This document shows, one piece after another, positions 10,949 through 26,601 of a stretch of DNA of 64,000 bases. The position numbers were made by a program, and so were the translations under genes. The notes beneath the pieces were generated by a model. The model did no database searches. It saw only the letters and a list, made by a program, of their open reading frames with translations, and was not told the origin of the DNA. How positions within the stretch are numbered: position 1 is the first letter of the stretch; each line of letters starts with the position of its first letter. The stretch spans positions 613,501 to 677,500 of the forward strand of contig NZ_CP072309.1 in assembly GCF_017726655.1 (NCBI RefSeq), read 5' to 3'. Source of the stretch: Agrobacterium tumefaciens. GTDB taxonomy: Bacteria; Pseudomonadota; Alphaproteobacteria; Rhizobiales; Rhizobiaceae.

Positions 10949-11175
10949 TTTTATCGCGCCCTTTTGCAAGCACTTTTTTGGAAGTTGTACGTCAGGAAGA
11001 GAAAGAGGGGGGCGATGACCTGGCGTTTCGCACAGGAAGACCTGCCCATTCCGCACGACCCATTCGCCAGCGGTCACGCAAGCAAGAGGGTGCCGACGGG
11101 CTCACCAGAAGCTTTCGACAATGGTTATGATGTATATCCATTGACAAATCAGCAGACACCAGCTTTTCTAATCAC

Positions 11176-11673: not shown

Positions 11674-11904
11674 ATGAACCCGATTTATATCGTGGTTGCA
11701 GCGCCCCTGTTACTGGGCGGCTGCACTGCCACATCGATGATGAACGACGCCGCCTCCTATGACGACGCGGCGAACCCGACGCTTGGCGCCCCTCCGCTTC
11801 GTTATCAGACGCCGGTCTCGGGCTACACCGCCCGCATGCCGGCGGATCCGAAGCCGTGGCGTAACCAGAACGATGCGCAGGCTCCGAAAGGAGGTGCATC
11901 ATGA
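11674..11904 (+). CDS. Small lipoprotein of the copper operon
   Basis: A 76-residue protein with a lipoprotein signal: hydrophobic IYIVVAAPLLLGG followed by the lipobox Cys at residue 17. The mature part is short, polar and Pro-rich (NPTLGAPPLRYQTPVSGY), with no recognised domain. Its stop overlaps the start of the TolC-like gene by four bases (ATGA), so the two are coupled and probably assemble together at the outer membrane. Function unknown beyond this association. Confidence 0.75.
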   Translation: MNPIYIVVAAPLLLGGCTATSMMNDAASYDDAANPTLGAPPLRYQTPVSGYTARMPADPKPWRNQNDAQAPKGGAS

Positions 11905-13376
11905 TGCCACGCTCACTCCCACTCGCATCAAAACTCGCGGCAATCCTGTCGTTGCCGCTTTTTCTCAGCGGCTGCGTATCTGCCGCACAATATGCCTCCC
12001 GGGAGGCCGGTTTCACGACTGTCTCGGCGAAGACAACAGAGGCGACAGGGAAACAGACCGCATGGGTTCAGAACCGGGCCGAGGCACAGGCAACAGAGGC
12101 CCGTGTCAAATCGCTGATGGCGGCCAGCAAGACGCTCGACGTCGAAACGGCGGTGCAGGTCGCGCTGCTGAACAATAAGGGCCTGCAGGCGGCTTACGCC
12201 GATCTGGGCGAATCAGCTGCCACCGCATGGCAATCGACTCTGTTGGTCAACCCAAGCATCGGCCTGGGGCTGACGGGTATCGGCACGCCAGGCCTCAGGG
12301 CCTACAAGACAATCGAAGGCGTCCTCACCACTAATATTCTGGCACTCGCCACGCTCAAAAAGAATGTCGAAATCGCCGATACCGGCTTTCGCAAGGCGCA
12401 ATTGGGCGCGGCGTTGAGAACGCTGCAACTGGCTGCGGATACACGTCGCGCATGGATTTCCGCCGTGGCGGCTTCGGAAAACGTCGGCCAATTGGCTCAG
12501 GCGCAGACCGCTGCGGCCGCCGCTTCGGAACTCGCCACCAAACTCGGTGAGTCCGGCGCGATGAACAAGGAAGGCCAAGCCCGTGAGCAGGTGTTTTATG
12601 CCGAACTGACGGGCCAGATCGCCAAGGCAAGACTGGAAGCCCGTCTTGCCCGGGAGGAACTGACGCGACTGATGGGACTTTGGGGATCAGATATCGAATA
12701 CAGCATCCCCACCCGTCTGCCGTCACTTCCCAAGGCACTCGCCCAGCGTGACATGATCGAGGCCGAGGCGCTGCAGCGTCGGGTGGACTTGCAGATGGCC
12801 AAGCTCGACCTGGAGGCGACCGCCCGCTCCTTCAAGCTCACCGAAGCGACCCGGTACGTCAGCGATCTCGCACTCAGATCGGGTTTCGAGACCGAGCGTG
12901 AAAAAGATGAAGACCGCATAAACAAACAAACGACCGGCCGCGCCGAACTGGAATTCGTCATTCCGATCTTCGATTCCGGTCAGGCCCGCATGCGGGAATC
13001 CGAACTCGCCTATATGCGCGCCGCCAACCTGCTGGCGGAAAAGGCGGTCAATGTCCGCTCGGAAGCCCGCTCCGCTTATCAGGCGTATCGGTCCACCTAC
13101 GACATCGCCCGGCACTACCGCAACAGCGTGGTTCCGCTGCGCAACCGGATCGAGGAAGAATCGATGCGGACCTATAATGGCATGCTGACCAACACTTTCG
13201 AGTTGCTGGCCGACAGCCGCGAAAAGGTCAATTCGAATCTACTCGCCATCGATGCCAAACGCGACTTCTGGCTCGCCGAAGCAGGGCTCGTTCCGGCCAT
13301 TTATGGGGGCGGTTCGGGTGCAGCTGGCGGAGAGACCGAGGTTGCCGCCGCCTCCGGCGGCGGCGGTGGACATTGA
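11901..13376 (+). CDS. TolC/CusC-family outer-membrane lipoprotein
   Basis: A 491-residue protein with a lipobox signal (SLPLFLSGC, Cys near residue 25) and two long coiled-coil-rich repeats typical of outer-membrane efflux proteins: the first around SKTLDVETAVQVALLNNKGLQAAYADLGES, the second with KLDLEATARSFKLTEATRY and FVIPIFDSGQARMRESELAYMRAANLLAEKA. Such proteins form a periplasm-spanning trimeric exit duct. It ends in a Gly-rich tail with GGGGGH. Within the copper operon one expects a CusC-like role, but no RND pump or membrane-fusion gene is next to it, which is unusual for this family. Confidence 0.85.
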   Translation: MMPRSLPLASKLAAILSLPLFLSGCVSAAQYASREAGFTTVSAKTTEATGKQTAWVQNRAEAQATEARVKSLMAASKTLDVETAVQVALLNNKGLQAAYADLGESAATAWQSTLLVNPSIGLGLTGIGTPGLRAYKTIEGVLTTNILALATLKKNVEIADTGFRKAQLGAALRTLQLAADTRRAWISAVAASENVGQLAQAQTAAAAASELATKLGESGAMNKEGQAREQVFYAELTGQIAKARLEARLAREELTRLMGLWGSDIEYSIPTRLPSLPKALAQRDMIEAEALQRRVDLQMAKLDLEATARSFKLTEATRYVSDLALRSGFETEREKDEDRINKQTTGRAELEFVIPIFDSGQARMRESELAYMRAANLLAEKAVNVRSEARSAYQAYRSTYDIARHYRNSVVPLRNRIEEESMRTYNGMLTNTFELLADSREKVNSNLLAIDAKRDFWLAEAGLVPAIYGGGSGAAGGETEVAAASGGGGGH

Positions 13377-13391
13377 GAAAGGAGAACCATC

Positions 13392-14741
13392 ATGTTCAAT
13401 AGAAGACAACTTCTGGGCGTCAGCGCCGCGATGGTCTCCACGGCGGCCTGGGCGAAAACCTCCAACAGCAGCCTGCCGGAAGCGGCAGTGATGGAAACCG
13501 CGGCAACGCAGGCGCCGGTGAAGCCCACAACCGGTCCCGATTATAATCCGGTCGTCACCTTGAACGGCTGGACCCTGCCCTTCCGGATGAACAACGGCGT
13601 CAAGGAATTCCACCTCGTTGCCGAGCCGGTGGAGCGCGAAATGGCCGAGGGCATGACGGCTCGCCTCTGGGGTTACAACGGCCAGTCGCCCGGCCCGACC
13701 ATCGAGGCCGTCGAAGGCGACCGAGTGCGCATTTTCGTCACCAACAAGCTGCCGGAACATACGACGATCCACTGGCATGGCATGATCCTGCCATCGGGCA
13801 TGGACGGCGTGGGTGGACTGTCGCAGCCGCATATCCCCGTCGGAAAGACCTTCGTCTATGAGTTCGACCTCGTGAAGTCGGGCACCTTCATGTACCACCC
13901 GCATTCGGACGAGATGGTGCAGATGGCGATGGGCATGATGGGCTTCTTCGTGATCCATCCGAAAGACCCGGCCTTCATGCCTGTGGACCGCGATTTCGTG
14001 TTCCTGATCAACGCCTATGATATCAATCCCGGCTCCTATGTGCCGAAGATCATGACCATGACGGACTTCAATCTGTGGTCATGGAACAGCCGGGTGTTTC
14101 CGGGCATCGATCCGCTGGTGGTTTCCAAGGATGACCGGGTGCGTGTCCGCGTCGGTAACCTGACCATGACCAACCACCCGATCCATATGCACGGTTACGA
14201 TTTCGAAGTGACCTGCACGGATGGCGGATGGGTGCGACCCGAGGCGCGCTGGCCGGAGGTCAGCATCGATATCCCCGTCGGCGCCATGCGGGCCTATGAA
14301 TTCGACGCCAAATATGTCGGCGACTGGGCGATCCATTGCCACAAGTCGCACCATACGATGAATGCCATGGGACATGACGTTCCCACCTTCATCGGCGTCG
14401 ACAAGAAAACCGTCACCGAAAAGATCCGCAAGGTCCGGCCGGACTATATGCCGATGGGCACCGCCGGCATGGCCGATATGGGCGCGATGGAAATGGAAAT
14501 CCCTGAGAACACCGTTCCGATGATGAACGGCTGGGGGCCGCACGGCCCCATCGAAATGGGCGGCATGTTCTCCGTCGTGAAGGTTCGCGAAGGCATCTCG
14601 GCGGGCGATTACACCGATCCCGGCTGGTACGAAAACCCGCCCGGCACCCAGGCGTGGGAATGGACCGGCGAGCTGCCGGACAGCCAAAAAAACACCGACC
14701 CAAAAACGCAGATCACGCCGCAACCGATGAAACACGGCTGA
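13392..14741 (+). CDS. Tat-exported multicopper oxidase
   Basis: A 449-residue copper oxidase, probably oxidising Cu(I) to Cu(II) in the periplasm. The N-terminus MFNRRQLLGVSAAMVSTAAWA is a Tat-type signal. All four copper motifs are there: HWHG (about 126-129), HPHS (about 169-172), HPIHMHG (about 261-267) and HCHKSHHTMNAM (about 314-325), the last with type 1 Cys, His and axial Met. After it come about 120 residues with a Met-rich stretch (MPMGTAGMADMGAMEMEIP), which may gather Cu(I). The AAAGGAG ribosome site is ten bases after the TolC-like stop. Confidence 0.93.
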   Translation: MFNRRQLLGVSAAMVSTAAWAKTSNSSLPEAAVMETAATQAPVKPTTGPDYNPVVTLNGWTLPFRMNNGVKEFHLVAEPVEREMAEGMTARLWGYNGQSPGPTIEAVEGDRVRIFVTNKLPEHTTIHWHGMILPSGMDGVGGLSQPHIPVGKTFVYEFDLVKSGTFMYHPHSDEMVQMAMGMMGFFVIHPKDPAFMPVDRDFVFLINAYDINPGSYVPKIMTMTDFNLWSWNSRVFPGIDPLVVSKDDRVRVRVGNLTMTNHPIHMHGYDFEVTCTDGGWVRPEARWPEVSIDIPVGAMRAYEFDAKYVGDWAIHCHKSHHTMNAMGHDVPTFIGVDKKTVTEKIRKVRPDYMPMGTAGMADMGAMEMEIPENTVPMMNGWGPHGPIEMGGMFSVVKVREGISAGDYTDPGWYENPPGTQAWEWTGELPDSQKNTDPKTQITPQPMKHG

Positions 14742-14785
14742 TCGTCCAGATTACACACCCCCACCAGAACCAAGGAAACCATAAA

Positions 14786-15262
14786 ATGACCAGACTGAAA
14801 ATTGCACTGCTTCTCGCCGCGCTCGCCACCCCTGTTTTCGCAGGCGGCGCCCACTCCGGCGGCGACAACGCGATGGCGGTTGGCGAACCCGGCGACAAGT
14901 CCAAGGTGACCCAGACCATTCAGGTGACGATGAAGGAAACGCCTGATGGCAAGATGATGTTCACGCCCGCCAAATTCGAATTCAAGAAGGGCAAGACAGT
15001 GCGTTTTGCCGTGAAAAATGTCGGCGAGTTGGACCATGAATTCATCATGGACGAGCAAAAGGCCAATCTAGAGCATAAGGCCGTCATGGCAAAGGCGCCG
15101 GAGATGGAGCACGACAACCCAAACGCCATCAGCCTCGCGCCTGGTGAAAGCGGCGAACTCGTCTGGAAATTCACCAATGACGGCATGTTCGAATTCGCTT
15201 GCCTGAAACCGGGGCATTACGAAGCCGGCATGCGCGGCGACCTTAAAGTTTCGGCAAAGTAA
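14786..15262 (+). CDS. Periplasmic cupredoxin
   Basis: A 158-residue blue-copper-type protein with signal peptide MTRLKIALLLAALATPVFA. The C-terminal half shows the cupredoxin pattern: His in VGELDHEFIMDE, then CLKPGHYEAGM with Cys, His and Met at type 1 spacing. It probably shuttles electrons or copper to or from the multicopper oxidase. The start is the ATG at 14786 with AAGGAAA eight bases upstream; a longer frame back to 14654 overlaps the oxidase gene and lacks a signal peptide. Confidence 0.9.
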   Translation: MTRLKIALLLAALATPVFAGGAHSGGDNAMAVGEPGDKSKVTQTIQVTMKETPDGKMMFTPAKFEFKKGKTVRFAVKNVGELDHEFIMDEQKANLEHKAVMAKAPEMEHDNPNAISLAPGESGELVWKFTNDGMFEFACLKPGHYEAGMRGDLKVSAK

Positions 15263-15673: not shown

Positions 15674-16783
15674 CTATCCAGCCGCGATTTGCCTGAAAGC
15701 GTCGAGGAAGTGATCATTCTCCTCGCGGGAGCCAATGCTGACACGAATGAAGGTGTCGAAGCCCGGTTGTTTCCATGGCTTCACGATGACGCCAAGGCGG
15801 AGCAGATTTTCCGCCACATGCACGGCGCTGACCCCGACATCGATGAAGAGGAAATTGCATTTCGACGGCGCCATGCGGTAACCCAGCCCCTTCAGTGCGC
15901 CTGCGACACGCCCGCGCTCCGTAAGAGCCAGTTCGACGGATTTCCGCAAGTGCGCTTCATCGTTGAGAGCGGCAATGGCCGAAGTCTGGGCGATGGCGTT
16001 GGTGTTAAAGGGCGTGCGGGCGCGGTTGAGAAAATCGCAGAGCTCCCCGCTACTGACGATGCCATAACCGATGCGGAGACCCGCAAGGCCGAAGGCTTTG
16101 GAGAAAGTGCGAAGGACCACCCAGTTCACATTCGCATCCCGCAGCATCTCGACAGCGGATGGATAGTTCTCGCCAGCCGCATATTCGGCATAGGCCTCGT
16201 CGATGACGACTATTGTGTCCTTGTCGAGCGCAGCGATGATCGTACCGAGTTCAGCCGGCGTCAGCCATGAACCAACGGGGTTCATCGGATTCGAGAAGAT
16301 CAGCATGCGCGGTTTGCGTGCGATGGCCGCGAGCAATGCATCGACGTCGATCGTCAAATCGGACTTCACAGGCACACGGTCGATCACGCCGCCCATCAGC
16401 GTGGTGTAGTCTTCGTGCAGCGGGAAAGAGGGATAAAGCGTCGCGACCATATCGCCCTGGCGAACGATTGATCGGCAGATAACTGCAATCAGATCCTCCG
16501 AGCCGTTACCGAGGATCATCTGGCTGTCATCCACCTCGAACCGCGCAGCAAGCTGACCGCACAAGGCCCGCCCCTGCGGATCGGGATAGAGGCGCGCCAG
16601 TTCGCCGATATCGGGAAAAAGGTGACGTAGCGCAGGCGATGGCCCAAGCGGATTCTCGTTGGAGCCCAGCTTCGCGATGGTGCCAACGCCATATTTCGCC
16701 CGCACCTCTTCAATCGTCAGACCTGCATTGTAGGGGGCAATGGCGCGGATTTCGTCGCGAATGGGGCTTGAAGGCTTTTCCAT
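15674..16783 (-). CDS. hisC: Histidinol-phosphate aminotransferase family protein
   Basis: A 369-residue class I/II PLP aminotransferase of the HisC type. Seen are KLGSNENPLGPSPALR, LGNGSEDLIAVICRS, FSNPMNPVGSWL, VVIDEAYAEYA and RTFSKAFGLAGLRIGYG with the Schiff-base lysine. The start ATG at 16783 has GGAG eight bases upstream; the open frame extends further without conserved residues. It is not in a histidine biosynthesis operon. It faces an SDR gene and lies beside a HisD-like, HutC-regulated gene set, and a TGTATAGACA dyad sits in the shared promoter region. It may therefore be a catabolic or side-pathway HisC rather than the biosynthetic enzyme. Confidence 0.85.
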   Translation of the reverse strand: MEKPSSPIRDEIRAIAPYNAGLTIEEVRAKYGVGTIAKLGSNENPLGPSPALRHLFPDIGELARLYPDPQGRALCGQLAARFEVDDSQMILGNGSEDLIAVICRSIVRQGDMVATLYPSFPLHEDYTTLMGGVIDRVPVKSDLTIDVDALLAAIARKPRMLIFSNPMNPVGSWLTPAELGTIIAALDKDTIVVIDEAYAEYAAGENYPSAVEMLRDANVNWVVLRTFSKAFGLAGLRIGYGIVSSGELCDFLNRARTPFNTNAIAQTSAIAALNDEAHLRKSVELALTERGRVAGALKGLGYRMAPSKCNFLFIDVGVSAVHVAENLLRLGVIVKPWKQPGFDTFIRVSIGSREENDHFLDAFRQIAAG

Positions 16784-16845
16784 TTTGCAGTCTCCATGAG
16801 ATGCGGATGAACCAGTCATAAGCCCGCAAATCACATTCGTAAATA

Positions 16846-16855
16846 TGTATAGACA
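16846..16855. promoter_or_regulatory. Dyad TGTATAGACA between hisC and the SDR gene
   Basis: One mismatch from the perfect palindrome TGTATATACA found before the ABC transporter operon (17866-17875). It lies 62 bases before hisC and 50 bases before the SDR gene. I read both as sites for the HutC-type regulator encoded at 24555-25286; HutC operators known to me are of the TTGTA...TACAA kind. Confidence 0.5.
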
Positions 16856-16905
16856 TTTTAAGACGAAAATGATGTCATCCTGGGTGAACAAACAAAGGGG
16901 CCGCC

Positions 16906-17673
16906 ATGACTCAGCCGAACTTCGATCTCTCCGGCCGCCGTGCGCTTGTGACCGGCGCAAGCCGCGGCATCGGCCAGGCCATTGCCGTCGCCCTGGCGCA
17001 GGCTGGCGCCGATATCGCCATCACCGCACGCACGGTCGAGGCGCTCTCGGAAACGCATGCGCGCATCAGCAACCTTGGCCGACACTGCGTGACGCTCGCG
17101 CAGGACGTTCGCGACGTTGAAGCATGCACCCGCGTGACGACAGAAGCCGCGGAAAAACTTGGTGGCCTCGACATCCTCATCAACAACGCCGGCTTCGAAA
17201 ACGTTCGCGCGTCGTTCGATGTTGACGAAGCACTTTGGGAGTCGATCCTTTCAACAAACCTGAAGGGCGCATTTTTCTGCGCGCAGGCAGCCGGCCGCAT
17301 CATGGCCGAAAGCGGCGGGGGCGCCATCGTTAACCTCTGCTCGCTGACATCCTATGTCGGCATTCCAACCGCCGCTCCTTACGGCGCTTCGAAATCCGGG
17401 CTGCTGGGCATAACCCGCGCCCTTGCCAGTGAATGGGCGGCGCATGACATCAGGGTAAACGCGATTGCCCCGGGCTACTTCCGCACAGCCATGACGAAGG
17501 TTTTCTACGAAAATGACGATTGGCAATCGCGGATGCTGGAGAAGATCCCGCAACGACGCTTCGGCAAGGAGAGCGACATTGGCGGCGTTGCCGTTTTTCT
17601 CTGCAGCGATGCGGCCGCCTACATTACAGGTCATTGCATTCCGGTGGACGGCGGCTATCTGGCCTCGATCTGA
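16906..17673 (+). CDS. Short-chain dehydrogenase/reductase
   Basis: A 255-residue classical SDR of the FabG/glucose-dehydrogenase type. The NAD(P)-binding GASRGIGQAIA is at 18-28, the NAG motif in LINNAGF at about 89-95, and the catalytic Tyr/Lys in PYGASKSG at about 158-165. The end has GHCIPVDGGY. The base after the second strand (TARTVEA) does not settle NAD versus NADP. It starts 122 bases from the divergent hisC and is followed by a 295-base gap before the ABC genes. Shared dyads suggest co-regulation with the transporter and the HisD-like enzyme, so it probably oxidises an alcohol in the same pathway. Confidence 0.88.
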   Translation: MTQPNFDLSGRRALVTGASRGIGQAIAVALAQAGADIAITARTVEALSETHARISNLGRHCVTLAQDVRDVEACTRVTTEAAEKLGGLDILINNAGFENVRASFDVDEALWESILSTNLKGAFFCAQAAGRIMAESGGGAIVNLCSLTSYVGIPTAAPYGASKSGLLGITRALASEWAAHDIRVNAIAPGYFRTAMTKVFYENDDWQSRMLEKIPQRRFGKESDIGGVAVFLCSDAAAYITGHCIPVDGGYLASI

Positions 17674-17854
17674 TGCGGACAAACCTCCCGTTGGAACGAC
17701 TGTGAAATAGTACCGGATAGAGGTCTTCGGCGCTTGCCATTCGGCGCGATGAGAAACAAAGTCGCTGAATTGACCGATAAACTTTTCCGCACCTGCACAA
17801 ATATTGCGCAACACGATTTCAGGCGAAAAATTACGCAAATCCAATTGACGCAGG

Positions 17855-17876
17855 TTGTACATATATGTATATACAA
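17855..17876. promoter_or_regulatory. Compound palindrome upstream of the ABC transporter operon (putative HutC-type operator)
   Basis: The stretch holds overlapping perfect palindromes TACATATATGTA and TGTATATACA, flanked by TTGTA and TACAA. It sits 93 bases before the ATP-binding protein start. The core recurs with one mismatch at 16846-16855. Likely bound by the GntR/HutC protein encoded in the cluster. The rest of 17674-17968 shows no gene. Confidence 0.55.
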
Positions 17877-17968
17877 GTACATATAACCCGGCGACAACAC
17901 ATCGCCGAAGGCGTACAGACAGCTTTGAGGCGATTAGCGGCCATCAACGCGCGACAGGGGGAAATGTC

Positions 17969-19099
17969 ATGGAGGCAGCAGCACTTCGTCCGGTCGATCC
18001 TTCCGCTGACCCCATCGCAGTATCCGTTAAGGACGTGGGAATGTCCTTCGGCAATGTTCATGCCGTCAAGCACGCCTCTTTTGATCTTCCCAAGGGCCGC
18101 TTCCTGACCATCCTGGGTCCTTCCGGTTCAGGCAAGACGACGCTGCTGCGGATGATTGCCGGCTTTGATCGCCCGACCAGCGGCGAAATCTTCATCAATG
18201 GACAGCCGGTCAGCGCCGTGCCGCCACACCAGCGCGCCATCGGTATGGTGTTCCAGAAGCTCGCGCTTTTTCCGCACATGACCGCCGCCGAAAACGTCGC
18301 CTTTCCCCTGAAAATGCGCCGACATGATGCCCGCACCATCCCTGAGAAGGTCGAGCGGTATCTCGACCTCGTTCGCCTCGGCGGTTACGGTGATCGCCGC
18401 ATCAACGAACTCTCGGGCGGCCAGCAACAGCGTGTCGCCATTGCCCGCGCCCTGGTGTTCGAACCGGATCTGCTTTTGCTCGACGAGCCGCTCGCGGCAC
18501 TTGATCGCAAGCTGCGCGAGGAAATGCAGCTGGAGTTCCGCCGTATTCAGAAGGAACTCGGCGTCACCACTATCAACGTTACTCACGACCAGCGCGAGGC
18601 ACTGGTTGTGTCCGACGAGGTTATCGTGATGAACGACGGCGAAATACAGCAGAAGGCACGGCCGGTGGAAGCCTATCGCGCGCCGTCGAATGCCTTTGTT
18701 GCAAACTTCATCGGCGTCACCAACTTCATCGAAGGAAGCGTTGCCGAAGTCGCACCAACCAATGTCACTATCACGGCGGCAGGCATCAATCTTGTCGGTG
18801 TCGCTTCGGATGAGAATGTCGCGGTCGGCGCGGCCTGTGCCGGGGCGGTTCGCGCAGAGCAAATTCGCATCGCCCCTACCAATGGTCGCCTCGAAGGACT
18901 GTCAACCGTCGTAGACGGCAAGGTCGAAGACTGCATTTTCGAAGGCGAGCGCGTGGTTTATGAAATTCGGGTCCAGGCTCTCGGCGGCGTTGTGATGCGC
19001 GTGTTCGATCATGATCCGGAATCACACCTGCAATTCGCTCCGGGCGACGACGTTCGCCTGGGCTGGAATGCACGGGATATGCATATCTTTCAAAAATGA
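17969..19099 (+). CDS. ABC transporter ATP-binding protein (polyamine/opine type)
   Basis: A 376-residue ATPase: Walker A GPSGSGKTTLL, signature LSGGQQQRVAIARAL, Walker B LLLLDEPLAALD, H-loop VTHDQREAL, then a C-terminal TOBE domain from about residue 270. It resembles PotA/FbpC-type proteins that drive import of polyamine-like or small organic substrates. The start is the ATG at 17969 behind AGGGGGA; an in-frame ATG at 17855 would fall inside the operator dyad. First gene of an operon continuing through binding protein, two permeases and enzymes. Confidence 0.93.
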   Translation: MEAAALRPVDPSADPIAVSVKDVGMSFGNVHAVKHASFDLPKGRFLTILGPSGSGKTTLLRMIAGFDRPTSGEIFINGQPVSAVPPHQRAIGMVFQKLALFPHMTAAENVAFPLKMRRHDARTIPEKVERYLDLVRLGGYGDRRINELSGGQQQRVAIARALVFEPDLLLLDEPLAALDRKLREEMQLEFRRIQKELGVTTINVTHDQREALVVSDEVIVMNDGEIQQKARPVEAYRAPSNAFVANFIGVTNFIEGSVAEVAPTNVTITAAGINLVGVASDENVAVGAACAGAVRAEQIRIAPTNGRLEGLSTVVDGKVEDCIFEGERVVYEIRVQALGGVVMRVFDHDPESHLQFAPGDDVRLGWNARDMHIFQK

Positions 19100-19132
19100 C
19101 CCTCAGAAGGTCGGACCAGAGGAGAATGTTCA

Positions 19133-20248
19133 ATGTCGCATGATAAATTTCTGACAGCCCAGCTTCGCCGTCGCACGTTGCTGGCGTCGTTCTCCGCAGC
19201 CGGCGCTTATGCCGGCCTGTCCACGCTCGGCGTCAGCCGCGCCTTTGCGCAGGAGCCGGAAAAACCAGCGGAAATCATCGTTCGCGCCTGGGGTGGCAGT
19301 TGGGTCGATGCGCTGAAAGCGGGCGTCTCCGACAGCTTCACCAAGGCAACCGGCATCGCGGTGCGCCACGATCTGACCGAGGATAACGAAATCCAGCCGA
19401 AGGTCTGGGCCGCCGTCGCCCAGAAGCGCGTTCCGCCGATCCATATCAACTGGGACACGACGACGAATGCCACCAAGTCGGCCCTGCGTGGCGTCACCGA
19501 AGACCTCTCGGACCTGCCCAATCTCAAGAACGCCACCGATCTTGCCAAGCCCGTCGGTCTCGATGGCTATCCGATCGTCAATACCTATGGGTATGTCTAT
19601 GTGCTGGCCTATCGCCCTTCGGCATTCCCGAACGGAGCGCCGAAGTCCTGGAAGGACCTTCTCGACCCGAAGCTGAAGGGCCGTATCGCGCTCTATAATG
19701 ACGGCATTGGCTTCCATTTCCCGGCGCAGGTCGCAGGTGGCGGCAAGCTCGAGGACATTCCCGGGAACATGCAGCCCGCCTGGGACTTCATTTCGAAGAT
19801 CAAGGCGCAGCAGCCGCTGCTGGGCGAAGACCCCGATTTCACCACCTGGTTTCAGAAAGGCGAGATTGACGCTGCCTGCACCATTTCAACCAATGCGCGT
19901 GAAGCCAAGAAGAACGGCATCGAGATCGCATGGGTGGTTCCGGAGGAAGGCGCGAAATTCGATACCGATGGCCTCTGGATCCCGAAGGGCCTGCCGGAGA
20001 ACGAACTCTACTGGGCGAAGCAGTACATCAACCATGCCCTGACCCAGGAAGCCCAGCAGGTCTGGCTTGATGGCCTTGGCCTTCCCGGCGTCATTCCGGG
20101 CGTCAAACCGCCGGCCGACCTCGTGGGCGATCCTTCCTATCCGACGACGGAAGAAGAGTTCAAACACCTGATCCGGGTTTCGTCCAAGATCCAGGTCGAA
20201 AACGAGAGCCAGTGGTTCGCCAAGTTCAAGGAGATCATGCAGGGTTGA
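19133..20248 (+). CDS. ABC transporter substrate-binding protein (PotD-like)
   Basis: A 371-residue periplasmic binding protein of the spermidine/putrescine-type family. The N-terminus QLRRRTLLASFSAAGAYAGLSTLGVSRAFAQ has twin arginines and could use Tat. The mature part starts EIIVRAWGGSWVDALKAG and contains FTTWFQKGEIDAACTISTNAREA, typical of this group. It binds the imported compound of the cluster; the ligand is unknown. A stable hairpin after its stop (20260-20286) could favour its expression over the permeases. Confidence 0.9.
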   Translation: MSHDKFLTAQLRRRTLLASFSAAGAYAGLSTLGVSRAFAQEPEKPAEIIVRAWGGSWVDALKAGVSDSFTKATGIAVRHDLTEDNEIQPKVWAAVAQKRVPPIHINWDTTTNATKSALRGVTEDLSDLPNLKNATDLAKPVGLDGYPIVNTYGYVYVLAYRPSAFPNGAPKSWKDLLDPKLKGRIALYNDGIGFHFPAQVAGGGKLEDIPGNMQPAWDFISKIKAQQPLLGEDPDFTTWFQKGEIDAACTISTNAREAKKNGIEIAWVVPEEGAKFDTDGLWIPKGLPENELYWAKQYINHALTQEAQQVWLDGLGLPGVIPGVKPPADLVGDPSYPTTEEEFKHLIRVSSKIQVENESQWFAKFKEIMQG

Positions 20249-20259
20249 AACCTTGCCAC

Positions 20260-20286
20260 GCCCGCCGCTTCGTTCAGGTGGCGGGC
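20260..20286 (+). promoter_or_regulatory. Intercistronic hairpin after the binding-protein gene
   Basis: GCCCGCC (20260-20266) pairs with GGCGGGC (20280-20286) across a 13-base loop, in the 122-base gap before the first permease. No T-run follows, so it is more likely an mRNA-stabilising or partial-termination element, as often found after binding-protein genes. Confidence 0.5.
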
Positions 20287-20370
20287 ATTCCACCTGAGGA
20301 TAAGAGATAACGCGGTCGCTTTGGCAAATGCGCCCTAGCTTTTGCCGGGACCGCTCGAGGATCGGTATTC

Positions 20371-21315
20371 ATGCGCGCTTCCCGTGTCGCATATCCCCTG
20401 GCGTGGCGCGTCATGGATATGCTCGAACGACTTGCGGCCATTTTCTGGCCTTCCAGCTTCAAGAAGGGTCTGCCCTATCTGATGCTGCTGCCGGCCATCG
20501 TGCTGGTTGGCCTTCTGGTCCTCGGCCTCATCCAGATCGGCGATACGAGCCTTCGGACGCTGGACACGAATACGTTTCTGATGTCCGAGACCTATACGCT
20601 CGCAAATTACCAGCGGGCGCTGACGGAAAAATTCTTTGCCACCGTCGCCGGCCGCAGCCTGATAGGCTCGCTGATCGTCACCGTCATCACGCTGATATTC
20701 GCCTTCCCTTACGCCTATCTCATGGTGCGCACGTCCTCCTCGGCACTGCGCAAATTCCTGCTCGTTGCGCTGTTCTTGCCTTTCTTCATCGGTCAGGTGG
20801 TGCGCGCCTATGGCTGGCTGATAATCCTCGGCAACCAGGGCATGGTGAATGAGGCTCTCGGCTTGGTCGGTGTCCCACCGATACGCCTTCTCTATAACTA
20901 CCCGGCCGTCCTGTTCGGCCTTGTTCAATATATGCTGCCCTTCGCTGTTTTGATGCTGGCACCTGCCCTGACCGCCATTCCGGCGGAACTCGAGGCCGCC
21001 GCCGCCTCCCTCGGCGCCAGCTGGCTTCGCACCTTCCGTCATGTCGTCCTGCCGCTTTCCCGCCCCGGCCTCGTCGGAGCCGGTCTCGTCGTGGTCACGC
21101 TCTCCCTCACGGACTTTGCCATTCCCGCCATCCTTGGCGGGGGGACACAGGATTTCATCGCCAACGCGATCTACGACCAGTTTTTCCGCACCTCCGACCA
21201 AGGCCTCGGCGCGACGCTCTCGCTGCTGCTCGTCGCCGTCGGCTCCATTCTCGTCGGTGTGGTTTTCATGGTCTTCGGTGCAGGCACGCTTGCCATGGGG
21301 GGCGACCGCAAATGA
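20371..21315 (+). CDS. ABC transporter permease (PotB-like)
   Basis: A 314-residue inner-membrane permease with about six membrane segments. The ATPase-contact EAA loop is ELEAAAASLGASWLRTFRHVVLPLSRPG at roughly 208-235. PYAYLMVRTSSSALRKFLLVALFLPFFIGQVVRAYGW is typical of PotB-type subunits. An in-frame ATG at 20413 is an alternative start. Its stop overlaps the second permease by four bases. Confidence 0.9.
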   Translation: MRASRVAYPLAWRVMDMLERLAAIFWPSSFKKGLPYLMLLPAIVLVGLLVLGLIQIGDTSLRTLDTNTFLMSETYTLANYQRALTEKFFATVAGRSLIGSLIVTVITLIFAFPYAYLMVRTSSSALRKFLLVALFLPFFIGQVVRAYGWLIILGNQGMVNEALGLVGVPPIRLLYNYPAVLFGLVQYMLPFAVLMLAPALTAIPAELEAAAASLGASWLRTFRHVVLPLSRPGLVGAGLVVVTLSLTDFAIPAILGGGTQDFIANAIYDQFFRTSDQGLGATLSLLLVAVGSILVGVVFMVFGAGTLAMGGDRK

Positions 21316-22112
21316 CGGGCAGCCGCAGCAAATCCATCGTCATCTGGGCCTTCGTCGCGACCGCGCTGGTCATGTTGTCGGCACCCACCATCGTGGTTCT
21401 CGGTGCCTCGTTCACCTCAGGCAACATCATCACCTTTCCGCCAGATGGGTTTTCCTTGCAATGGTACAGCAAGATCGCCCACGCCACCGATCTGCGGCAA
21501 GCCTTCTTCCGCTCACTGATCGTCGCGGCGATCTGCACCCTGGTATCCATTCCCGTCGGCACGCTCGCCGGTATCGCGCTCGCCAAATATCGGGTGCGGT
21601 TTGCCCGCTCCATCCAGATCTATCTGCTGCTTCCCTTCACGATTCCGCTGATCGGTTCTGGCATCGGCATGATGCTCGCCTTTGGAGAGATGGGTGTGCT
21701 CGGCAAACTATGGCCAGTCGGCATCGCCTGCTCGGTGATCAACCTGCCCTTCATGATCTGGGCAGTGACGGCAAGCGCGAGTAACCTGTCGCCGGATCTG
21801 GAGCTCGCCGCTGCAAATTGCGGCGCGCCACCCCTGCAGCGTTTCCTTTACATCACGCTTCCCGCCGTCCTGCCGGGCGTGATCACGGGTTCGCTCTTAA
21901 TGTTCATTCTGGCGCTGAACGAATTCCTGGTGAGTCTGCTTCTGGTCGACGCGCGAAGCGTCACGCTGCCGGTGCAGATCTATAACTCCATCCGCTCGAT
22001 CATCACGCCGGACCTGGCCGCCATTTCCGTGGTCTTCATCGCCTGCGCCGGGATCGCGATCGCGCTGCTCGACCGCCTCGTCGGCCTCGACATCTTCCTG
22101 AAATCGAAGTGA
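21312..22112 (+). CDS. ABC transporter permease (PotC-like)
   Basis: A 266-residue permease, six predicted membrane segments, with EAA loop LELAAANCGAPPLQRFLYITLPAVLPG at about 158-184. It pairs with the preceding permease to form the channel. Start overlaps the upstream stop (ATGA). The HisD-like gene follows 37 bases later, so transporter and enzymes are likely on one transcript. Confidence 0.9.
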   Translation: MTGSRSKSIVIWAFVATALVMLSAPTIVVLGASFTSGNIITFPPDGFSLQWYSKIAHATDLRQAFFRSLIVAAICTLVSIPVGTLAGIALAKYRVRFARSIQIYLLLPFTIPLIGSGIGMMLAFGEMGVLGKLWPVGIACSVINLPFMIWAVTASASNLSPDLELAAANCGAPPLQRFLYITLPAVLPGVITGSLLMFILALNEFLVSLLLVDARSVTLPVQIYNSIRSIITPDLAAISVVFIACAGIAIALLDRLVGLDIFLKSK

Positions 22113-22149
22113 CCAATCGGCCGTTTGGCCAGCCATCAAGGACAAGACG

Positions 22150-23478
22150 ATGACATCAGTGTCTTTCTATGACTATTCCAAGCTCGATGCCGATGAGAAG
22201 GCCGCCCTGCTGCGCCGTTCGGAAAGCGACATCTCGAGCTTCATCGAAAAGGTTGCCCCCATCCTCGAAGCCGTTCGCACCGAAGGCGACAGTGCACTGG
22301 CTCGCTTCGGTCGCGAACTCGACAAGGCCGACGTGACCGAAGCCAATCTCAAAGTTACCGAAGCCGAATTCGATGCGGCCTTCAAGCTTGTCGATGCAAG
22401 TGTCATCGAATCCATCCAGTTCGGCATCGACAATATCCGCCATTTCCATGAGGAGCAGAAGCCGGAAGCCATGTGGCTGAAGGAAATTCGTCCCGGCGCC
22501 TTTGCGGGTGACCGCTTCACGCCAATCCAGTCTGTGGCGCTCTACGTTCCGCGCGGCAAGGGCTCCTTTCCGTCAGTTACCATGATGACCTCTGTGCCTG
22601 CGGTGGTTGCCGGCGTTCCGAACCTCGCCATCGTCACACCGCCTGCGCCCGATGGCTCGGTCGATGCGGCTACGCTCGTCGCCGCGCGCCTCGCCGGCGT
22701 CGATACGGTCTACAAGGTCGGTGGCGCCCAAGCGGTGGCCGCCGTCGCCTACGGTACGCAGACCGTCAAGCCAGCGCTCAAGATCGTGGGTCCGGGAAGC
22801 CCATGGGTCGTCGCCGCCAAGCGTTCGCTGTCGGGCGTCATCGATACCGGCCTGCCGGCCGGTCCCTCGGAAGTCATGATCCTTGCCGATGATACGGTCC
22901 ATGGCGGCCTTGCCGCGCTTGACCTGCTGATTGAAGCAGAACACGGCCCCGATTCTTCGGCCTATCTCGTCACCCATAGCCGGCGCGTCGTTGAAGAGGC
23001 GATTGCAGCCCTGCCCGAACACTGGGCCAAAATGTCGGAGCAGCGCGTCGCTTTCTCCAAGACCGTTCTCACCGGCAAGACCGGCGGCATCGTCCTGACG
23101 TCCTCGATTGAAGAGAGCTACGCTTTCGTCAACGCCTATGCGCCGGAACATCTTGAATTACTCTCGGAAGAGCCGTTCATACACCTTGGGCATATCACCG
23201 AAGCCTCCGAAATTCTGATGGGCACCCACACGCCGGTCAGCATTGCCAATTTTTCGCTCGGGCCGAACGCCGTTCTGCCGACCAGCCGCTGGGCACGCAC
23301 CTTCGGGCCGCTTTCGGTGACCGACTTCGTGAAGCGCAGTTCGATCGGCTATGTCACGCCGCCAGCCTATCCGGAATTCGCCAGACATTCCCGTAACCTC
23401 GCTCTTTACGAAGGCTTTTCCTCGCATGCCCTGGCGGTTTCTCCGGTGCGCGACGCCTATCTGAAAAAAGGTTCCTGA
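22150..23478 (+). CDS. HisD-like dehydrogenase with altered substrate site (HpsN-like candidate)
   Basis: A 442-residue homologue of histidinol dehydrogenase. The fold is clear from FTPIQSVALYVPRGKGSFPS, KIVGPGSPWVVAAKR, DTGLPAGPSEVMILAD and the catalytic pair in NAYAPEHLEL (about 329). Compared with true HisD, the zinc-ligand Gln of the QAEHGPDS region is Glu (IEAEHGPDS). The GDY...GTNHVLPT stretch reads ANFSLGPNAVLPT, so a metal-ligand Asp is Asn and a substrate-contacting His is Ala. The terminal EGFSSH keeps Glu and His. It is therefore unlikely to be the biosynthetic enzyme. Sulfopropanediol 3-dehydrogenase (HpsN) is a known HisD relative and a reasonable guess, given the SDR and zinc alcohol dehydrogenase beside it. 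Confidence 0.8.
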   Translation: MTSVSFYDYSKLDADEKAALLRRSESDISSFIEKVAPILEAVRTEGDSALARFGRELDKADVTEANLKVTEAEFDAAFKLVDASVIESIQFGIDNIRHFHEEQKPEAMWLKEIRPGAFAGDRFTPIQSVALYVPRGKGSFPSVTMMTSVPAVVAGVPNLAIVTPPAPDGSVDAATLVAARLAGVDTVYKVGGAQAVAAVAYGTQTVKPALKIVGPGSPWVVAAKRSLSGVIDTGLPAGPSEVMILADDTVHGGLAALDLLIEAEHGPDSSAYLVTHSRRVVEEAIAALPEHWAKMSEQRVAFSKTVLTGKTGGIVLTSSIEESYAFVNAYAPEHLELLSEEPFIHLGHITEASEILMGTHTPVSIANFSLGPNAVLPTSRWARTFGPLSVTDFVKRSSIGYVTPPAYPEFARHSRNLALYEGFSSHALAVSPVRDAYLKKGS

Positions 23479-23482
23479 TTCC

Positions 23483-24496
23483 ATGAAGGCGGTGCGGCTT
23501 TACGATGCGAACGACCTGCGTGTGGAGGAGATGGCCTCCCCATCTTCGCCGCCGGCAGGCTTTGTCAATCTGCAAGTCAGGGCAGCGGGCATTTGCGGTT
23601 CCGACCTGCACAATTACCGCACCGGACAATGGATCTCCCGTCGTCCCTCCACCGCCGGTCATGAGTTCTGCGGACGCATTACGGCAATCGGCGACGGTGT
23701 GACTGATTTTGCCATAGGCGATGTTGTTTCATCGGACTCCCGCATGTGGTGCGGCCTCTGCCCTGCCTGCTTGAGTGGCCGCAGCAATGTGTGTGAAAGC
23801 TTGGGCTTTGTCGGCGAGGTGTGCGATGGCGGTTTCGCCGATGAGGTGCAGGTGCCGGCGAAGCTCCTGGTTCGCCATGATCCGCACCTCTCGCCACATA
23901 TCGCTGCCATGGCAGAACCGCTCGCTGTGGCACTGCATGCGGTGCGTCGCCTTTCTGTTCCTAGAGGGGAGCCGGTGCTCGTCATCGGCTGCGGCACAAT
24001 CGGCGGGCTTTGCGCTCTCATCCTCTCCCGCCTGCACAACGGCCCGCTTCTGCTCGCCGACCTGAATGCGGAACGAGCCCGACGTGTCAGTGACGTGACA
24101 GGCGGCAAGCTCGTGACACTCGACACGGCTGCGATAGACGCCACGCTTTCGGGTGGCCGCCTTCGTTATGCGCTTGACGCCACCGGCAGCATTCAGGCGA
24201 TAAGCCGGGCCATCGAATTGCTCTCCGGTGGTGGCGGTCTGGCGCTTGTCGGCATCAGCCACGGCAAGCTTGATTTCGATCCCAATGTTCTTGTCGAGCG
24301 CGAAGTTTCGCTGATCGGCTGCCACGCCTTTTGTGACGAACTGCCGGAGGCGACGGCGCTTCTGACCGAACTCGCGCCGGCTCTTCACCGCTTTATCGAG
24401 GTGCTGCCCTCACTCGATGATGTCCCCGCCGCCTATGACCGATTGCTGAGGGGTGAAAGCAACGTTTTGAAGACGATAATTGACGTGTCGGAATAG
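23483..24496 (+). CDS. Zinc-dependent alcohol dehydrogenase
   Basis: A 337-residue medium-chain dehydrogenase. Catalytic zinc residues are in AAGICGSDLHNY (Cys about 38) and TAGHEFCGRI (His-Glu about 61-62). Structural zinc Cys residues are in MWCGLCPACLSGRSNVCE. The nucleotide-binding VLVIGCGTIGGLCAL is near 167-181. It starts four bases after the HisD-like stop and belongs to the same operon. It most resembles sorbitol/threonine-dehydrogenase-type enzymes and probably oxidises a secondary alcohol of the imported substrate. Confidence 0.88.
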   Translation: MKAVRLYDANDLRVEEMASPSSPPAGFVNLQVRAAGICGSDLHNYRTGQWISRRPSTAGHEFCGRITAIGDGVTDFAIGDVVSSDSRMWCGLCPACLSGRSNVCESLGFVGEVCDGGFADEVQVPAKLLVRHDPHLSPHIAAMAEPLAVALHAVRRLSVPRGEPVLVIGCGTIGGLCALILSRLHNGPLLLADLNAERARRVSDVTGGKLVTLDTAAIDATLSGGRLRYALDATGSIQAISRAIELLSGGGGLALVGISHGKLDFDPNVLVEREVSLIGCHAFCDELPEATALLTELAPALHRFIEVLPSLDDVPAAYDRLLRGESNVLKTIIDVSE

Positions 24497-24554
24497 ACCT
24501 GACACCTGACTTCAACAATGCCGGCGCGACGACGCGGAGGCGGAGACAGTGGCC

Positions 24555-25286
24555 ATGACTGCACTTTCAGATTCCGCCTCACCACTCTACGAGAAGGTGA
24601 AGGACTTCGTTCTCGGCAACATCGGCAGCGGCAAATGGGCGCGCAACAGCCGCTTGCCTTCGGAGCACGAGCTGGTTTCGACGCTCGGCGTTTCGCGCAT
24701 GACCGTCAACCGGGCGCTTCGGGAGCTCACGTCGGAAGGGCATCTGCGCCGCATCCAGGGCGTAGGCACTTTTGTCGCGCCGCCAAAACCGCAGTCGACG
24801 CTGATCGAGATCAGCAACATCATGACCGAAATCAGAGCCCGTGGTGGTCGCCACCGCGCCGAGGTTGTGGTGCTGGAACGCATCGCCCGGCCAGAACCCG
24901 AACTCCTGCTTGCCTTCGAGTTTGAGACCAGCCGGCCCGTGGACCATTCGGTCGTCATTCATTTTGAAAACGACCTGCCGGTGCAGCTCGAGGAACGCTA
25001 TGTCAATCCCGGCCTCGTTTCGGGTTATGTCGAGCAGGACTTCACCATGGCGGCAACCTACGACTACCTCCAGAACGCAACACCGCTCACCGAAGTGGAG
25101 CACCTGATCAGCGCCCTGCCGGCCAGCGAGGCCCATGCGCGTCTGTTGCAGATCCGGGTCGGCGACAGCTGCCTCGTTCTGCACCGCAAGACCTGGACGG
25201 GTCCGATCGTCGCGACCGTCAACACGCTGACCTATGTCGGCAGCCGCTACTCGCTTGGAAGCCGCTATCTGCACGGCGGCAAATAA
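24555..25286 (+). CDS. GntR/HutC-family transcriptional regulator
   Basis: A 243-residue regulator. The winged-helix GntR domain (about 8-72) contains RLPSEHELVSTLGVSRMTVNRALRELTSEG and IQGVGTFVA; the UTRA ligand domain follows, with VVIHFENDLPVQLEERYVNP and a C-terminal PGSRY-like YVGSRYSLGSRYL. Over its length it looks very like HutC, the urocanate-sensing repressor of histidine utilisation, but no hut genes are near. I start at the ATG at 24555 (GGAG nine bases upstream) rather than the GTG at 24549. It probably represses the cluster through the TGTATATACA dyads. Confidence 0.88.
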   Translation: MTALSDSASPLYEKVKDFVLGNIGSGKWARNSRLPSEHELVSTLGVSRMTVNRALRELTSEGHLRRIQGVGTFVAPPKPQSTLIEISNIMTEIRARGGRHRAEVVVLERIARPEPELLLAFEFETSRPVDHSVVIHFENDLPVQLEERYVNPGLVSGYVEQDFTMAATYDYLQNATPLTEVEHLISALPASEAHARLLQIRVGDSCLVLHRKTWTGPIVATVNTLTYVGSRYSLGSRYLHGGK

Positions 25287-25308
25287 GACAACATCCGGAA
25301 CAATTGCC

Positions 25309-26601
25309 ATGACCCAGCCCGCCAGCCGCACCGCGGAAATCCGAAAAATCGCCAAGGCCGCCGATGGCAGAGCGGAAAAGATGCTTGCCGACCTGCTGCG
25401 TGACCTTTTCAGCATCGAAGCAAGGAATGTGGCGATCAATCAGGATCAGTACAGCCTCAATTCCCTCAATGGCTTCTTCGATACCGGCGAGGGTGAGTTC
25501 TTCTTCAAGTTCCATCAGGAGGAAGGCGAAGAGGCCATGAGCGGTGAATATTACCGTGCTGACATTCTTGCCCGCGCCGGTTTGCCGGTCGACCAGCCTT
25601 TGCTCATGTCCGTGCTGCCTGGTGAACAGATCCTCGTCTATCGCCGCCGCAGCGACCCGCGTTTTTCCGATGTGTTGCGTACGCTGGACCTCAAGGACGA
25701 TCCGGCAGCTCGCGCAAAGGCGGTGGAAGCCGAGTGCAGGCTGAATGAGGCGGTTCTGAAAGTGTATCTGGAAACGCTGCACGGCGTCACGCCCACGCAA
25801 GTGGCCGCCGAGCCGGTTCATCGATTGTTCTATGAGCGCCTGATCGATCCCCCCACAGGCATCTATCCCGGTGGCAGGCTGGCAAATTTCTACGTCGACA
25901 AGACGTTCGATCTGCCGGACATGACGCTGGATTGGCAAACCCTCTCCGGGCTTCGCTTCTGCGTCAACGGCATTGCATATCGCGACAGTCTTGCGGCGCT
26001 TTTCGACGAGGCGCATGAACGGCTGAAGCCAGCGAAGCTCGCCGATGCCGGCGGCGTCACCGCCCATGGCGATGCCCATAATGCCAATGTCTGGTATGAG
26101 GATGATGGCAGCGACGCCCGCCTGTCCTTCTTTGACCCCGCTTTCGCCGGTGAGAATATTCCGACGCTCCTCGCGGAAGTGAAGACGACCTTCCACAACA
26201 TCCTCGCCCATCCGTTCTGGCTCTACGATCCAGCCCTTGCAGCCAGAAGCTATTCGGCGAGCGCCACGCTCGACGGCAACATGCTGCGGATCACCACCAG
26301 CTACGAGCCCAGTGCAGTTCGGCGCGACCTGCTTACCGTGAAGGGCGAGGCGATGTGGCGGCCGCTCCTTGCCGAGCTGAAGGCGCGTAACATGCTGCCC
26401 GCTGACTGGCGCCGTGTTGTCCGTCTCGGCCTTTTCCTGTGCCCGGCATTGGTGATGAACCTTCGCGCGGGCGCAACGAGCCATAACCCGGTGTCATCCC
26501 TGATCGGCCTGTCGAGTGCCGTCATGGCAGGGAGCGAACCGGTCGAAGGCGAGGACGCCCTGACCCGCTTCTTCGACGCAATCGATCCGGATCGAGGCTG
26601 A
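25309..26601 (+). CDS. Kinase-fold (APH/choline kinase-like) phosphotransferase
   Basis: A 430-residue protein with a phosphotransferase active site: HGDAHNANVW (Brenner motif, about 252-261) followed by the metal-binding Asp in LSFFDPAFAGEN. The N-lobe has the FFDTGEGEFFFKFHQEE strand pair with a plausible ATP lysine. These enzymes phosphorylate small molecules such as choline, sugars or aminoglycosides. It is longer than typical APH proteins. It follows the HutC-like gene by 22 bases, so it probably acts on the substrate or an intermediate of this pathway. Start at 25309 is chosen because earlier residues overlap the regulator gene. Confidence 0.75.
   Translation: MTQPASRTAEIRKIAKAADGRAEKMLADLLRDLFSIEARNVAINQDQYSLNSLNGFFDTGEGEFFFKFHQEEGEEAMSGEYYRADILARAGLPVDQPLLMSVLPGEQILVYRRRSDPRFSDVLRTLDLKDDPAARAKAVEAECRLNEAVLKVYLETLHGVTPTQVAAEPVHRLFYERLIDPPTGIYPGGRLANFYVDKTFDLPDMTLDWQTLSGLRFCVNGIAYRDSLAALFDEAHERLKPAKLADAGGVTAHGDAHNANVWYEDDGSDARLSFFDPAFAGENIPTLLAEVKTTFHNILAHPFWLYDPALAARSYSASATLDGNMLRITTSYEPSAVRRDLLTVKGEAMWRPLLAELKARNMLPADWRRVVRLGLFLCPALVMNLRAGATSHNPVSSLIGLSSAVMAGSEPVEGEDALTRFFDAIDPDRG

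Follow-up and report, generated by a model that had tools for sequence, protein, structure and literature searches.

We analysed a 64,000-nucleotide stretch of Agrobacterium tumefaciens DNA (NZ_CP072309.1, positions 613,501 to 677,500; hereafter the window) and found a group of ten genes in which a PotABCD-type ATP-binding cassette (ABC) importer is joined by a HisC-type aminotransferase, a short-chain dehydrogenase/reductase (SDR), an enzyme of the histidinol dehydrogenase (HisD) family, a zinc alcohol dehydrogenase (Zn-ADH), a HutC-type regulator and a kinase of an unnamed family. The group has an operator sequence in common with the histidine-utilization (hut) genes of the same genome and is linked to hut genes in relatives. 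It is probably best read as a module of the histidine-utilization regulon, by which an imidazole C3 alcohol would be imported, made into histidine and passed to the Hut enzymes. Imidazole C3 compounds whose breakdown ends in histidine are proposed on the strength of the HisC and HisD families, the HutC-type sites and, in part of the relatives, a 2-hydroxy-acid oxidase.

The operator bound by HutC is given as TGTA-N2-TACA in the text of PMC12977541. An exact copy, TGTATATACA, lies at 17866 upstream of potA and a copy with one mismatch, TGTATAGACA, lies at 16846 between hisC and the SDR gene; matches to TGTATATACA with at most one mismatch numbered three in the window against 0.14 expected from shuffled sequences. 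The third, a one-mismatch relative at 11131 outside the cluster, is possibly a chance match. The exact operator was also found in the genome's own hut operon just 5' of hutF, where it stands between the divergent hutI and hutF genes, a placement that rests on the likely hutI start as the mechanical hutI reading frame runs across the operator. A genome-wide search with WTGTATAKACAW returned four places (six strand matches), two in the cluster, one at hut and one by a ProVWX-type importer, and what counts in this result is the positions of the sites and not their number. The last of these belongs to a second HutC-site unit (L092, C1:2504000-2523000; the main hut operon is L083) that holds the ProVWX-type importer, a HutC paralogue and a HAL-like gene of 452.5 bits, below the hutH cut-off, with the operator by the likely importer start.

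The same operator was mapped in 69 kinase-bearing loci obtained by scanning genome contigs for the kinase, which come from related species and are not independent of each other. Promoter zones of hut and cluster genes make up 6.5% of the DNA in these relatives and contained 90 of the 103 operator sites; at least one in-zone operator was present in 51 of the 69 loci. By gene, the operator was present in 24/35 hisC zones, 36/64 sdr zones and 24/45 potA zones. Nineteen permuted palindromes used as a control gave a mean of 1.6 in-zone sites (highest 15), and the enrichment is descriptive, as the zones were picked after sites had already been inspected. With a HutC-family repressor gene above its profile cut-off in the same unit and the exact operator ahead of the importer genes, the cluster looks like part of the HutC regulon and very probably feeds histidine catabolism under the control of HutC, which would act by repression. 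A published reconstruction of the HutC regulon places importers and HutD under this control, and in two species the his operon of biosynthesis as well (Leyn et al. 2016, PMC5343134). Like that regulon, the module combines a HutC-family repressor with hut enzymes and ABC importers under shared control; it differs in its HisD-kinase-SDR-ADH set, of which there is no mention in the text of that paper, its figures and supplements lying outside the comparison.

Gene content in the relatives showed that the grouping is not due to chance. A HisD-family gene was present in 67 of the 69 kinase-bearing loci, an SDR in 64, a Zn-ADH in 55 and HisC in 35; a flavin mononucleotide (FMN) 2-hydroxy-acid oxidase was present in 29 (together with HisC in 23, alone in 6, with HisC alone in 12), and at least one of hutF, hutH, hutU and hutI lay near the module in 21. 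The importer was of PotABCD type in 47 loci and TauABC-like, i.e. resembling taurine/sulfonate importers, in 19, with both types in none and neither in 3. Identity thresholds for neighbouring genes were chosen by the analyst and genes lost at contig ends were scored as misses; L120 and L033 are probably the same contig, and at least one fetched locus was probably counted twice between samples. Recurrent neighbours were the FMN 2-hydroxy-acid dehydrogenase/oxidase, HutC-type regulators, hutF, hutH, hutU and hutI, and in Rouxiella (L058) and Winslowiella (L068) the oxidase, HisC, HutU and HutH are encoded by four consecutive genes of the same strand. The best solved-structure matches of the oxidase were L-lactate oxidase and (S)-mandelate dehydrogenase.

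Plasmids carry the same association. A 46-kb Klebsiella quasipneumoniae plasmid has a module part with a TauABC-like importer, hisD, kinase, ADH, SDR, 2-hydroxy-acid oxidase and a hydroxypyruvate-reductase-like gene, and a hut part with hutF, D, H, U, I, G and C together with a second oxidase, hisC and a second importer. An Agrobacterium pusense plasmid has the gene arrangement of the window with the oxidase directly 3' of the kinase, as does a Sinorhizobium meliloti plasmid. Among S. meliloti strains, RCAM1115 has the complete cluster, and the kinase was also detected in Rm41. The kinase was found in 106 of 72,556 plasmid records, and the module ranges over rhizobia, rhodobacters, roseobacters, enterobacteria, pseudomonads and a vibrio. 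The module used as query matched none of 5426 Escherichia coli genomes at 80% coverage, the matches shown being limited to about 1% of the query length, at its end. A different plasmid island (L135), which is not the window module, consists of hut genes, HisC, 2-hydroxy-acid oxidase and an iron alcohol dehydrogenase and recurs in nearly identical form in E. coli: 28 of 5426 complete genomes matched it, in every case on a plasmid, and 11 have at least 80% of the island. The initial annotation had proposed one catabolic regulon with its own importer and a search for the gene order in relatives; the search shows that the module recurs and that hut enzyme genes and the 2-hydroxy-acid oxidase join it, and a single regulon and pathway is supported by the operator in common with the hut operon and by the hut linkage. 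The two HutC-type sites in the cluster and the frequent oxidase go beyond that annotation.

Table 1. Features of the cluster in the window, with coordinates, strand and supporting evidence.
Feature	Coordinates	Strand	Evidence
HisC-type aminotransferase (histidinol-phosphate transaminase family), divergent	15674..16783	-	NCBIfam PRK05166 589.5 bits (cut-off 540); hisC 289 bits (cut-off 276.55)
HutC-type site TGTATAGACA, hisC/SDR gap	16846..16855	+	One mismatch to TGTA-N2-TACA
SDR	16906..17673	+	Profile matches; 64/69 loci
HutC-type site TGTATATACA, about 95 bp upstream of potA	17866..17875	+	Exact TGTA-N2-TACA
PotA-type ABC ATPase	17969..19099	+	Profiles; start by A. pusense orthologue
PotD-like solute-binding protein (SBP_bac_8)	19133..20248	+	Pfam profile
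PotB-type permease	20371..21315	+	Pfam and NCBIfam profiles
PotC-type permease	21312..22112	+	Pfam and NCBIfam profiles
HisD-family enzyme, Glu/Asn metal-site variant	22150..23478	+	hisD 418.5 bits (cut-off 243.8)
Zn-ADH	23483..24496	+	Profiles; 55/69 loci
HutC-type GntR/UTRA regulator	24555..25286	+	TIGR02018 262.4 bits (cut-off 220)
APH-fold kinase, unnamed family (430 aa)	25309..26601	+	Pfam APH E 8.8e-4, 19.5 bits (gathering score 23.2)

All ten genes called in the initial annotation are present and were confirmed by reading frames with Pfam and NCBIfam profiles. Comparison with the A. pusense plasmid, whose kinase is 92.5% identical to that of the window, revised the starts of hisC, potA, hutC and the kinase to those of Table 1 (hutC and kinase starts approximate); the hisC start was set from a profile match beginning at residue 60 together with the A. 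pusense orthologue, and an overlap of hutC and the kinase gene is gone because both starts moved. The best NCBIfam profiles of the Zn-ADH were threonine and other dehydrogenases, all below cut-off. Elsewhere in the genome there is a separate HisD of 541 bits and a further HisC-type protein above cut-off, so the HisC and HisD copies in the window look accessory. Outside the cluster, window positions 11901-15262 encode a TolC-like protein, a multicopper oxidase and a cupredoxin-like protein in a row, which from their translations resembles a copper-handling operon.

The HisD-type enzyme differs from the genome's own HisD at its active site. In an alignment of 69 rows (67 relatives, with the window sequence counted twice), Gln is replaced by Glu and Asp by Asn in 69/69 rows, the Asn of the nicotinamide adenine dinucleotide (NAD) site is Ser in 69/69 and one His is Ala in 68/69, with residue roles assigned by E. 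coli numbering. Relative to the HisD zinc ligands of two His, one Asp and one Gln described in the text of PMC11382572, Glu and Asn stand in place of Gln and Asp and the metal-site His is kept in all rows of the tree described below; the window enzyme scores well above the HisD family cut-off (Table 1).

The distribution of this variant provided a control on its function. Of 398 genomes drawn from the phylum, 20 had the type at E <= 1e-120, 11 of them from one genus (g105, family f47) and 9 from others including that of the window. The genus of family f47 (L122-L127, L129) had the Glu/Asn residues in 5/5 aligned sequences and no other HisD in 6/6 genomes, with HisA and HisF in 5/5 and hutH in none of the 4 genomes checked. 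One further genome (G008) encodes an ordinary HisB, HisA and HisF together with two HisDs, both of the Glu/Asn type, one in the module and one solitary; the solitary copy (L121, 8921-10258) differs from nearly all others in having Asn in place of Ala. By elimination, the Glu/Asn type can serve as a biosynthetic HisD, and as it is the sole HisD type in other genomes its substitutions do not exclude activity. Its presence in genomes lacking another HisD also makes histidinol-like (imidazole) chemistry likelier than sulfonate chemistry, and our reading is that the window enzyme uses histidinol or a closely similar hydroxy compound. The same control weakens another idea that was considered, namely that these proteins form a third HisD class whose substrate does not resemble histidinol. 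A tree of 27 HisD rows had many open forks and very long branches (the own HisD and the f47 rows) and therefore gives no direction of spread. For the nine genomes outside f47, seven loci beyond the window were fetched (G055 was left out), and the SDR gene adjoins HisD in 7/7 and the kinase is present in 6/7.

The kinase gave no NCBIfam match at E <= 0.001 and matched Pfam APH below threshold only. It has no meaningful match among PDB sequences, profile search included, and 5-methylthioribose kinase was absent from those matches. Its AlphaFold model (predicted local distance difference test score, pLDDT, 90.2) has PsiK and 5-methylthioribose kinase as nearest folds, which it resembles in fold only, at about 9% sequence identity and with Foldseek template modelling (TM) scores to 5-methylthioribose kinase of 0.39/0.46. 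H278, D280, N285 and D301 are invariant in 41 sequences and form the HxD...N catalytic loop and the metal-site Asp that follows it. The kinase has the catalytic motif of the APH/choline-kinase fold and falls outside the 5-methylthioribose kinase sequence family, and from its nearest folds it probably acts on a small molecule.

From these families we infer a route, with its substrate, its order of steps and the reaction of each enzyme including the kinase, as follows. The ABC importer would bring in a histidinol-type imidazole compound whose side chain is a short alcohol, candidates being histidinol, imidazolyl-propanediol, imidazole acetol and imidazole glycerol, which are dephosphorylated relatives of histidine-pathway intermediates. 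The SDR and Zn-ADH would act on the side-chain hydroxyl, adjusting its oxidation state or stereochemistry, the kinase would phosphorylate the alcohol, for example imidazole acetol to its phosphate, which HisC could transaminate, HisC would provide the amino group and the HisD-type enzyme would convert the terminal CH2OH to the acid. The L-histidine formed would then enter HutH-HutU-HutI, with the HutC repressor holding the operons off until urocanate accumulates. Two branches can be envisaged: in the first the alcohol would be oxidized to a ketone by the SDR or ADH and then pass through the kinase, HisC transamination, a phosphatase from elsewhere and HisD; in the second the HisD-type enzyme would oxidize a diol to imidazolelactate, on which the oxidase and then HisC would act. 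The second branch, imidazolelactate to imidazolepyruvate to histidine, would be added in those relatives that have the 2-hydroxy-acid oxidase; as the window is without it, the first branch is favoured there. Coote and Hassall reportedly found that pseudomonads degrade imidazolyl-L-lactate via imidazolepyruvate and histidine.

Several results weigh against this interpretation. The six genome-wide strand matches to the operator are little above the three of a reversed-pattern control, 18 of the 69 loci have no site in the tested zones, 37 are without a HutC homologue in the fetched stretch, and three HutC-family proteins of the genome score over cut-off, any of which may be the one that acts here. 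According to the text of PMC12977541 and PMC12772324, the sites bound by Pseudomonas aeruginosa HutC include some that do not resemble the consensus. The 2-hydroxy-acid oxidase is absent from the window and its best match in the genome is 34% identical, the kinase is missing in 1/7 of the further HisD-type loci, and 19/69 loci have taurine/sulfonate-like importers. Co-occurrence of hutH at the genome level is uninformative, as hutH is present in all 9 HisD-type genomes outside f47 and also in 8/8 genomes of the same families without the type. The control from f47 is itself affected, as HisB was missing in one and barely recognisable in four of the five genomes checked (0 to 32 bits, with a 27-bit cut-off and very long frames), where seven genomes from elsewhere gave 215 to 227 bits, and for this reason the histidine pathway of f47 may be odd. 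The G008 case is free of this caveat.

Two alternatives, both of which we consider improbable, account for part of these results. In the first, L-histidinol itself would be imported and converted by HisD to histidine, with the SDR, ADH and kinase in side reactions or acting on analogues. This is the simplest route into Hut and agrees with the HisD-family score and with genomes holding HisA and HisF where the type is the sole HisD, yet it leaves the SDR and kinase without a job when SDR and HisD so regularly travel with the kinase. In the second, a HutC paralogue would have been taken over by an unrelated pathway whose substrate would resemble, e.g., a polyamine, an opine or a sugar. Opine- and polyamine-binding proteins of the PDB are distant relatives of the PotD-like protein, the kinase fold nearest PsiK and 5-methylthioribose kinase makes a sugar substrate possible, and the genome has several HutC-family proteins, as noted above; this takeover is opposed by the pairing of hut enzymes, HisC and the 2-hydroxy-acid oxidase with the module in several lineages and by the identical operator sequence at hut genes. 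A spare biosynthetic his operon was set aside on the operators and the importer and not by a direct test; the module is like late histidine biosynthesis in its HisC and HisD families, probably with similar chemistry, and differs in its catabolic neighbours and operators and in the separate HisD and HisC-type protein of the genome.

The initial annotation had also left two readings in competition, of which the imidazole one gained support (operator in common with the hut operon, hut genes in the loci of relatives, oxidase and HisC adjoining hutU and hutH) and the other, catabolism of a sulfonate diol like 2,3-dihydroxypropane-1-sulfonate (DHPS), did not. In that second reading the HisD type would be HpsN, the SDR and ADH would be HpsO and HpsP, and sulfolactate would go to a desulfonating enzyme outside the window. 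The enzyme classes do resemble those of HpsN, HpsO and HpsP, HpsN chains were matched by sequence in the PDB search and TauABC-like importers occur in relatives. The motif diagnostic of HpsN, a DHPS 3-dehydrogenase, is G-R-Y-(A/S)-H in the text of PMC11382572, with His126 as the histidine that binds the sulfonate; the window loop reads PRGKGSF, with Lys, Gly and Phe at the motif columns and Phe at the His126 position in 69/69 rows. HisD chains outscored HpsN chains for the window enzyme, and both the operators and the neighbouring genes are of the histidine-catabolic kind, so that HpsN was rejected on the His126 motif and genomic context and the DHPS reading is very improbable. The module is like the HpsN/HpsO/HpsP route in having a HisD relative and two further oxidoreductases, and unlike it in lacking the HpsN His126 and having a kinase, HisC and a HutC-type regulator. 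HpsR, HpsU and SuyAB, described for the Cupriavidus pinatubonensis cluster in the text of PMC11382572, are not among the window cluster genes, and no genome search was made for SuyAB, Xsc or CuyA.

In summary, the gene set is real and conserved and, within the open-licence literature searched, new as a unit that combines known enzyme families with an unnamed kinase family; no description of the module was found in open-licence PMC literature. The HisD copies, where named, are annotated as histidinol dehydrogenase, several plasmid records are tagged as histidine biosynthesis and the kinase is mostly annotated as a hypothetical protein, so pathway tools would miss the module. Identification of the substrate of the proposed histidine-utilization module would reveal an imidazole nutrient common to several habitats, give the kinase family a function and correct the HisD annotation. 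It is tentatively possible that histidine-pathway compounds in dephosphorylated form (imidazole glycerol, imidazole acetol and imidazolyl-propanediol) are harvested by bacteria living in soil, on plants and in the sea; the new kinase family would re-phosphorylate them and a catabolic HisC-HisD pair would carry them through a re-run of the end of biosynthesis to feed Hut. If true, these compounds would form a class of imidazole nutrients that has gone unrecognised, and the kinase would have a new activity.

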